Source of the DNA: Limimaricola hongkongensis DSM 17492
GTDB taxonomy: Bacteria > Pseudomonadota > Alphaproteobacteria > Rhodobacterales > Rhodobacteraceae
Length of the DNA: 64,000 nucleotides
Direction: 5' to 3'
NCBI RefSeq assembly: GCF_000600975.2
Contig: NZ_KK088653.1
Location: forward strand, 744,501-808,500
The notes under the pieces were generated by a model. The model was not told where the DNA came from. It did not search any database and saw only the letters and a program-made list of their open reading frames with translations. This document shows, piece by piece, positions 588 to 1,394 of this stretch. The first letter of the stretch is position 1. The number at the start of each line of letters is the position of its first letter. The translations under genes and the position numbers were made by a program.

Positions 588-638
588 GTCCCAAAAACGA
601 GAAACGGCGACGCCCAGGGAGGAGGAGGGGCGCCGCCG
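588..638 (-). terminator. Rho-independent terminator ending the CcsR array
   Basis: The last array hairpin (605-638 as read on the plus strand) has an 11-bp GC-rich stem containing one G-U pair. On the minus strand it is followed at once by TTTCTCGTTTTT. The CCTCCTCC motif is in its loop, so this hairpin is both the final sRNA element and the terminator. Confidence 0.7.
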
Positions 639-686
639 CTGTGTTCCGAACCGCGGATCCTCAGGGAGGAGGAGGAGAACCCGTGG
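605..686 (-). ncRNA. CcsR unit (hairpins 2 and 1)
   Basis: This is the distal two-hairpin unit. Hairpin 655-682 pairs over 8 bp with two G-U pairs on the minus strand, and hairpin 605-638 pairs over 11 bp. The unit begins with CCACGGG on the minus strand. Its second hairpin is also the terminator. Confidence 0.65.
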
Positions 687-697
687 TCGTCTCGGTC

Positions 698-776
698 GAC
701 CGGCTTGGCCAGGGAGGAGGAGGGCCCGGCCGGTCCATGCAACGGATGCCTGATTGGGAGGAGAGCATCCGTATTC
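698..776 (-). ncRNA. CcsR unit (hairpins 4 and 3), first loop degenerate
   Basis: Hairpin 743-771 has a 7-bp stem and a shortened loop motif (GGGAGGAG on plus, one repeat fewer, preceded by TGATT). Hairpin 698-735 has a 13-base stem with a two-base internal mismatch. The unit begins with AATACGG on the minus strand. Confidence 0.6.
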
Positions 777-778
777 TG

Positions 779-823
779 TGCGACCGGCAGGGTCAGGGAG
801 GAGGAGGACCCTGCCGGTCTGAT
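779..823. repeat. 45-base direct repeat, copy 1
   Basis: These 45 bases are identical to 956-1000. They span a complete CcsR hairpin with its flanks, which points to recent duplication within the array. Confidence 0.95.
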
Positions 824-862
824 GCGCGCCGTTCCAGGGAGGAGGAGGGAACGGCCCGTATT
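782..862 (-). ncRNA. CcsR unit (hairpins 6 and 5)
   Basis: Hairpin 828-855 has an 8-bp perfect stem. Hairpin 782-819 has a perfect 13-bp stem. The second hairpin is part of the 45-base sequence that recurs at 956-1000. The unit begins with ATACGGGCC on the minus strand. Confidence 0.65.
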
Positions 863-873
863 CGAATTCCTGC

Positions 874-952
874 GAGCGACGGGGCAGGGAGGAGGAGGCC
901 CCGTCGCTCTGTGGTCCGCGTGCGCTCCAAGGGAGGAGGAGAAGCGCCCGTG
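874..952 (-). ncRNA. CcsR unit (hairpins 8 and 7)
   Basis: Hairpin 922-947 pairs over 7 bp with a G-U pair on the minus strand. Hairpin 874-909 has a perfect 12-bp stem. The unit begins with CCACGGGC on the minus strand. Confidence 0.65.
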
Positions 953-955
953 GCA

Positions 956-1000
956 TGCGACCGGCAGGGTCAGGGAGGAGGAGGACCCTGCCGGTCTGAT
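956..1000. repeat. 45-base direct repeat, copy 2
   Basis: Identical to 779-823; the two copies are 177 bases apart, two array units. Confidence 0.95.
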
Positions 1001-1040
1001 CTACGCGCGCGCCCCAGGGAGGAGGAGAGGGCGGCCCGTA
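959..1040 (-). ncRNA. CcsR unit (hairpins 10 and 9)
   Basis: Hairpin 1008-1036 has a short GC stem. Hairpin 959-996 has a perfect 13-bp stem identical to that at 782-819. On the minus strand an AT-richer linker, TTTGATAGTTTCCC, precedes the ATACGGGCC start of the unit. That linker is a plausible RNase E processing site. Confidence 0.65.
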
Positions 1041-1058
1041 TCTCGGGAAACTATCAAA

Positions 1059-1170
1059 GCGACGGCATCAGGGAGGAGGAAGATGCCGTCGCCTTGTTGC
1101 GGGCCGCCCAGGGAGGAGGAGGGGCGGGACCGCGGCTCGCGATCGGTTCAGGGAGGAGGAGGAACCGGTC
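1059..1170 (-). ncRNA. Promoter-proximal CcsR hairpins 13, 12 and 11
   Basis: Three hairpins lie closest to the DUF1127 gene: 1141-1170 (9-base arms with one mismatch), 1099-1132 (6-bp core stem) and 1059-1092 (perfect 11-bp stem; its loop motif ends GGAAG instead of GGAGG on plus). They lack the ACGGG start seen in the five distal units, so how they group into mature RNAs is unclear. Confidence 0.55.
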
Positions 1171-1184
1171 GGGATGCGGGAAAC

Positions 1185-1394
1185 TTACTTGGCTTCGCTG
1201 GCCTCGATCGCGATCCGCTTGATCATCGAGCGGCTGATGCCGAGATCGGCGAGGTCGCGGTCGGTCAGCGCCTGCAGCTCGTTGAAGGTCGTGCGGTAGA
1301 TCTTGCTCTTCGCGACCCGGTCGGCCAGGCTGGCACGAAGGGCGGCGATGCGCTGGCCGAGGCCGGCGCTGCGGGTGTCGGTGGTGTATGCCAT
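1185..1394 (-). CDS. ccaF1: DUF1127 small RNA-binding protein (CcaF1-like) heading the CcsR array
   Basis: The protein is 69 residues. A basic, alanine-rich amphipathic N-terminal helix is followed by the DUF1127 core (IYRTTFNELQALTDRDLADL, then GISRSMIKRIA). The ATG at 1394 is chosen because AAAGAGG lies eight bases upstream and the protein starts MAYTTDTR, as usual for the family. In Rhodobacter sphaeroides the equivalent protein, CcaF1, binds RNA and aids maturation and turnover of the downstream CcsR sRNAs. The same arrangement is seen here, with the first hairpin 14 bases after the stop. The family and synteny are clear. RNA binding in this organism is inferred. The 5' untranslated region contains a GC hairpin at about 1417-1434. 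Confidence 0.9.
   Translation of the reverse strand: MAYTTDTRSAGLGQRIAALRASLADRVAKSKIYRTTFNELQALTDRDLADLGISRSMIKRIAIEASEAK

Follow-up and report, generated by a model that had tools for sequence, protein, structure and literature searches.

What is a run of hairpins that share a loop and follow a DUF1127 gene, and which genes might it control? The question was raised by a 64,000-nucleotide stretch of the genome of Limimaricola hongkongensis DSM 17492 (here called the window, to which positions refer), in which a hairpin finder placed 13 hairpins on the minus strand, from 1174 to 603, downstream of the DUF1127 gene. The source genome (label G000) comprises 3.19 Mb in 8 contigs. The locus is of a known kind, enlarged, for which we infer transcription and targets, and our explanation as a whole, a DUF1127-CcsR operon that would silence solute-binding-protein genes, has in our estimate a probability of about 0.7. 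The features are as follows.

1555 to 1569, no strand: palindrome TGCTGCATAGCAGCA, upstream of the promoter-like site; CTGC-N3-GCAG form in relatives
1512 to 1539, minus: promoter-like ATTGTG-N15-CCTATTT, from genus conservation; in part RpoH-like
1185 to 1394, minus: DUF1127 gene (1394-1188 plus stop), 69 aa, CcaF1-like (PF06568, 44.3 bits)
1137 to 1174, minus: H1, single leading hairpin (hairpin finder, as for all hairpins below)
1055 to 1127, minus: H2 (1127-1104) and H3 (1096-1055), paired by lag similarity
959 to 1033, minus: H4 (1033-1010) and H5 (996-959), paired by lag similarity
874 to 953, minus: H6 (953-916) and H7 (909-874), paired by lag similarity
782 to 858, minus: H8 (858-825) and H9 (819-782), paired by lag similarity; H9 identical to H5
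698 to 772, minus: H10 (772-742, variant loop) and H11 (735-698), paired by lag similarity
603 to 688, minus: H12 (688-649) and H13 (640-603), paired by lag similarity
585 to 602, minus: T-rich tail past H13, TTTCTCGTTTTT on the minus strand, from the sequence; possible terminator

Structure, family and upstream region

The observation of the earlier note, 13 hairpins following a DUF1127 gene on the same strand, was upheld: when the pyrimidine loops were fixed and the stretches between them randomised (n = 2000), the shuffled sequences contained a mean of 3.1 and a maximum of 7 hairpins, the sum of stem scores was 351 for the array versus a shuffled maximum of 139, and the fold of 596 to 1180 on the minus strand had z = -9.4, with none of 100 shuffles equally good. 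The loop that had been described as constant is so in its core, CUCCUCCC, which is present in all 13 loops, but CCUCCUCC, the form originally read, occurs in only 12, the exception being H10. Similarly, CCUCCUCCC was found in 12 of the 13 loops, on variable stems, and the predicted probability of the loop core being unpaired was at least 0.90 in 11 of the 13. Within the tail past H13, TTTCTCGTTT is kept in two relatives; a terminator scan, which takes only loops of 3-8 bases, did not return H13.

The locus, in a Limimaricola genome, is very probably of the CIN1 type, a DUF1127 gene accompanied by anti-Shine-Dalgarno RNAs of the CcsR/cuckoo kind. According to an excerpt of PMC10253847, DUF1127 proteins are frequently linked with CcsR-like RNAs in Alphaproteobacteria, an association termed CIN1. 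A search of the window against Rfam at the gathering threshold gave no match. By E-value, however, four matches each were obtained for RF02344 (ar14; best 54.9 bits, E = 6e-9, gathering score 58.8) and RF02791 (CcsR1; best 43.2 bits, E = 5.6e-9, gathering score 65.3), all on the minus strand, so that the covariance-model search proposed earlier gave clear matches to both families while missing both gathering scores. These matches, the adjoining DUF1127 gene and the linkage in 31 of 38 named loci (see below) bear out the earlier assignment to the DUF1127-CcsR/cuckoo family. At E 0.01 the CcsR1 model had matches in 24 of 41 genomes (own included), none above the cut-off, and a single-hairpin model built in this analysis (R1), which is biased to Limimaricola and to 12-base loops, gave hits at E 0.1 in 155 of the 248 family genomes, with 12 matches in the source genome and a top count of 15 in genome G248. 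R1 matches lay on more than one contig or far apart in G117, G157, G176 and G248, which may thus have several array loci.

The DUF1127 protein is 87% identical to those of L. variabilis and L. cinnabarinus and 77% identical to that of L. pyoseonensis, its closest named relatives. Upstream, six of the eight genus sequences carry ATTGTG-N15-CCTATTT exactly, and the remaining two deviate from it at one base. The RpoH consensus, given in an excerpt of PMC4843759 as CTTGAA or CTTGCC, N15-16, CCTATAT or CCTATCT, shares only TTG with the -35 part of this putative promoter; for the ccaF1-CcsR operon of Rhodobacter sphaeroides, an RpoHI/RpoHII promoter has been reported (PMC10253847, in part). A promoter scan found no sigma-70 site, and the CTTG-type promoter pattern had one match among 35 other loci. 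The palindrome is more widely shared, CTGC-N3-GCAG being present within 350 bases upstream in 21 of 31 hairpin-bearing DUF1127 loci versus 1 and 0 in control windows; in several related loci it lies about 28 bases ahead of TTGTGCA. The genome has a single copy of the form CTGCATNGCAGCA. PhaR is a speculative candidate for the protein that binds the palindrome; the term for its site was absent from the literature examined. A gene for an Mrp/NUBPL-type P-loop ATPase (PF10609, PF01883) at 1728 to 2831 on the plus strand is divergent from the operon.

Array size, units and strand among relatives

Named DUF1127 loci numbered 66, and our counts use the best 38 of these (L059-L096), among which at least two hairpins lay downstream of DUF1127 in 31, at least 13 were present in four (three Limimaricola and one Wenxinia), and 19 of the 28 other hairpin-bearing loci had 6-9; the lower 28 of the 66 (L097-L124) had no more than two on the strand of DUF1127. 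On that strand, the genus arrays contained 13 hairpins in G000, 13 in G001, 8 in G002, 16 in L. variabilis (G003), 17 in L. pyoseonensis (G004), 13 in L. cinnabarinus (G005), 16 in G006 and 17 in G007, and Paracoccus lutimaris had 11. Since the eight Limimaricola genomes span 8-17, an array of 13 is ordinary for the genus, although large for the family, and we rejected the idea that it is unusually large for its genus. The earlier term "expanded" is therefore apt in comparison with R. sphaeroides but describes the usual state in Limimaricola, and the family has a larger array (17 hairpins in Wenxinia marina). With natural arrays that range up to 17 hairpins, the related loci lend themselves to a comparison of dose and regulon size. 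Another locus (L054, G014:C6:18500-25000) combines four DUF1127-matching ORFs with 11 same-strand hairpins.

The source genome also has a second DUF1127 gene with two hairpins, on the minus strand at about G000:C7 640,934-641,279, approximately 104 kb from the array (L041, 639000-643000: 1935-2280). One of these hairpins has a CUCCCUCCUCCCC-type loop, and the fold has z = -7.6. The genome thus pairs a small locus of the same kind with the large array.

Similarity among the window hairpins (loops excluded) peaked at lag 2 and lag 4 (0.8% and 0.6% of 500 permutations as high, respectively). Both lags were also prominent in L. cinnabarinus, G001 and L. pyoseonensis, with lag 2 only in L. variabilis (2.4%), lag 4 and a weak lag 2 (9-10%) in G006 and G007, and neither in G002. 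Units were therefore drawn as the pairs H2-H3 to H12-H13 with H1 alone, suggesting an array of six two-hairpin units plus H1, in place of the five two-hairpin units and three extra hairpins proposed before. In some relatives the similarity pattern suggests duplication of four-hairpin blocks, and in Wenxinia, where the peaks were at lag 3 (0 of 500 permutations as high) and lag 6, it suggests three-hairpin units. The array of W. marina DSM 24838 (L067, 4244-5012) has a period of three in spacing as well as in similarity.

The window array aligns in register with those of L. cinnabarinus and G001, the mean column identity being 95%. Relative to the window, differences were found at 4 of 157 loop sites in each (2.5%), at 22 and 25 of 300 stem sites (7-8%) and at 21 of 144 and 27 of 143 linker sites (15-19%), respectively. 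Of the 143 window pairs, three were broken in each relative, with changes on one side in 11 and 12, changes on both sides in 2 and 3, and a gap in 1. For a wider view, we compiled 89 distinct hairpins with 12-base loops, of which the window supplied 11, five other genus arrays 44 and other loci 34. Paired cells made up 77.5% versus 49.6% after shuffling and 43-44% when the partner was slid by one column, and double-change cells numbered 346 versus 151 (0 of 500 shuffles as high), counts that lean towards structure because the rows were picked by a stem finder. One of the five covariation measures, the number of pairs with changes on both sides, gave no excess (13 versus 12.4 shuffled, 210 of 500 as high). 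The tandem arrangement of the hairpins and the identity of H5 and H9 would also fit a REP-like or mobile repeat at the DNA level that merely resembles an RNA array. We rejected this very unlikely reading, because all nine genome occurrences of CCTCCTCCTCCCTG lie within the array, the register is kept in three species, compensatory changes are present in the stems and DUF1127 linkage recurs in 31 of the best 38 loci.

As to the strand, G-U pairs forming only on the minus strand had been held to fix it. Within the window alone they do not discriminate (six G-U versus five A-C, and a finder treating both alike recovers 12 of the 13 hairpins), but the argument holds over related loci, with 70 versus 33 in the eight genus arrays (window included) and 194 versus 46 in the best 38 named loci. 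Fold energy was likewise rejected as a guide, the plus strand (-302.8 kcal/mol) folding slightly better than the minus strand (-289.8 kcal/mol). This slightly stronger folding, together with plus-strand loops reading GGAGGAGG, would suit a CsrB-like sponge transcribed from the plus strand, with GGA loops binding CsrA; we discarded this most improbable alternative, since CsrA (PF02599) was found in 0 of 26 genomes, own included (3 of 14 control genomes were positive), the G-U excess over the 38 loci is on the DUF1127 strand, and the arrays of the named loci sit on that strand. The orientation of DUF1127, the G-U excess in relatives and the lack of CsrA together make the minus strand the likely RNA strand.

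Predicted targets at solute-binding-protein genes

GGGAGGAG, the exact complement of the loop core, offered a simple search pattern. The form GGGAGGAG-N3-9-ATG occurred at 22 genome sites versus 2 for the reversed control: one in the array itself (L143), four at ORFs of at most 30 aa and 17 at ORFs of at least 60 aa. Nine of these 17 ORFs encode solute-binding proteins (three SBP_bac_1, four DctP, one SBP_bac_5 and one Peripla_BP_6), and the other eight comprise a SoxA-like protein, MOFRL, a hydrolase, a luciferase-like protein, methylmalonyl-CoA mutase and three proteins with no family assigned. The control form GAAAGGAG had 14 sites and 13 ORFs of at least 60 aa, none for a solute-binding protein and one for a transporter ATPase. 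In the sister species L. cinnabarinus and L. pyoseonensis there were 73 GGGAGGAG-N3-9-ATG sites; from the 30 that were examined, less two array sites, one duplicate and three ORFs shorter than 60 aa, 24 ORFs remained, seven for solute-binding proteins and 17 for others. Exact copies of three of the 17 ribosome-binding strings are present in the sister set, at four of its 30 loci (L141-L196, L144-L188, and L145-L186 and L207), and three further strings recur by site lists, which does not imply correspondence of the genes.

We also drew up a list independent of the pattern, consisting of all genome matches of DctP (13) and SBP_bac_1 (12), families chosen after the hits were known. These 25 genes were framed from the Pfam match, and all were kept, some with doubtful starts (e.g. 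L209, L220 and L230); the background was 328 genes from 464 kb, selected with a simple ORF filter by GC at third positions. GGGAGGAG preceded 7 of the 25 genes and 0 of the 328 (Fisher 3.8e-9). GGGAGG preceded 12 of 25, being absent in 13, versus 12 of 328 (Fisher 1.4e-9).

With an assumed sequence of the 16S rRNA 3' end, the DctP/SBP_bac_1 genes had a median pairing energy of -10.8 versus -8.3 for the background (p 4e-4). Because these genes pair more strongly with that end, the match may be due in part to the strength of their Shine-Dalgarno sites. The whole solute-binding match would be such a by-product if the same operon acted on a few regulators (e.g. flhR), together with the DUF1127 protein and Hfq, and an excerpt of PMC8307010 does name flhR mRNA as a target of CcsR1-4, which it says also influence the glutathione pool and interact with Hfq. 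We regard this alternative as unlikely, because GGAGG preceded by A, C or T was not enriched (3 of 25 versus 40 of 328) as GGGAGG was, because GGGAGG remained enriched once the seven genes with the 8-mer were left out (5 of 18 versus 12 of 328, p 9e-4), and because the loop energy of the DctP/SBP_bac_1 genes was still lower after regression on the 16S energy (p 2e-4). Solute-binding-protein genes may be read as the target class of the array, a proposal drawn from sequence matches to which we give slightly less than even odds. The literature search found no paper joining Limimaricola and small RNA, and within the literature searched the CcsR target rule is new. It supplies the DUF1127-CcsR operon with a testable rule, namely GGGAGGAG ribosome-binding sites, many of them at transporter binding-protein genes.

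Proposed role and comparison with known systems

The analysis itself shows the structure, its conservation, the linkage to DUF1127, loops predicted to be open and an enrichment of the matching Shine-Dalgarno form. On the reading we prefer, a DUF1127-CcsR operon directed at solute-binding-protein genes, we infer transcription, processing, pairing, repression and a benefit of copy number as follows. A promoter approximately 120-145 bases upstream of the CcaF1-like gene would drive minus-strand transcription, and the transcript would run through the gene and all 13 hairpins and stop at or close to H13. As reported for R. sphaeroides, RNase E would probably process the tail of this transcript to short RNAs, each with about two hairpins. 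Each stem would present one CUCCUCCC loop, which would pair with a GGGAGGAG Shine-Dalgarno sequence and block translation, and the thirteen copies would provide more silencing loops per transcript. Since the GGGAGGAG form is concentrated in this genome on genes for ABC and TRAP periplasmic solute-binding proteins, the array would lower nutrient uptake in stress. NfeR1, an ar14 RNA, offers a precedent: it has three hairpins with the loop motif of the array and uses redundant motifs to pair at the start of ntrB translation, silencing the gene (PMC10746234, in part), and its first two validated targets were periplasmic binding proteins (PMC8844928, in part). By analogy with this related RNA, stress-induced silencing of nutrient uptake is the likely role of the array.

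A further reading, which we hold to be doubtful, is that GGGAGGAG is a shared address of transporter binding-protein genes and the array its copy-number-amplified reader. If true, one stress transcript would free at least 13 identical loops and shut nutrient uptake as a class, and blocks of hairpins would duplicate to adjust the length of the array (8-17 in the genus), the stems drifting under pairing alone; the length series would then be built of pairs here and of apparent triplets in Wenxinia.

Several known systems resemble the locus. AbcR1/2 (alpha-r15) likewise carry anti-Shine-Dalgarno motifs and repress mRNAs of ABC-transporter binding proteins, but they are RNAs of 114-121 bases with two distinct motifs, located elsewhere and not arrayed (PMC8844928, in part). 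The ar14/NfeR1 RNA of Sinorhizobium, whose family gave the best Rfam match here, has the same loop motif on variable stems and pairs at translation starts to silence periplasmic-binding-protein targets; according to the excerpts available, however, it stands alone, with three hairpins and a promoter of its own, and acts independently of Hfq, and the excerpts mention no DUF1127 gene. The cuckoo family or CIN1 (Reinkensmeier and Giegerich 2015, as represented in excerpts of citing papers) shares neighbouring hairpins, unconserved helices, a conserved loop and DUF1127, but is quoted with 2-4 hairpins (PMC4504443) versus the 13 here. In the ccaF1-CcsR1-4 operon of R. sphaeroides, a DUF1127 gene is followed, as here, by same-strand hairpins with CCUCCUCCC loops, the difference being that four CcsR RNAs are present there and 13 hairpins in the Limimaricola array.
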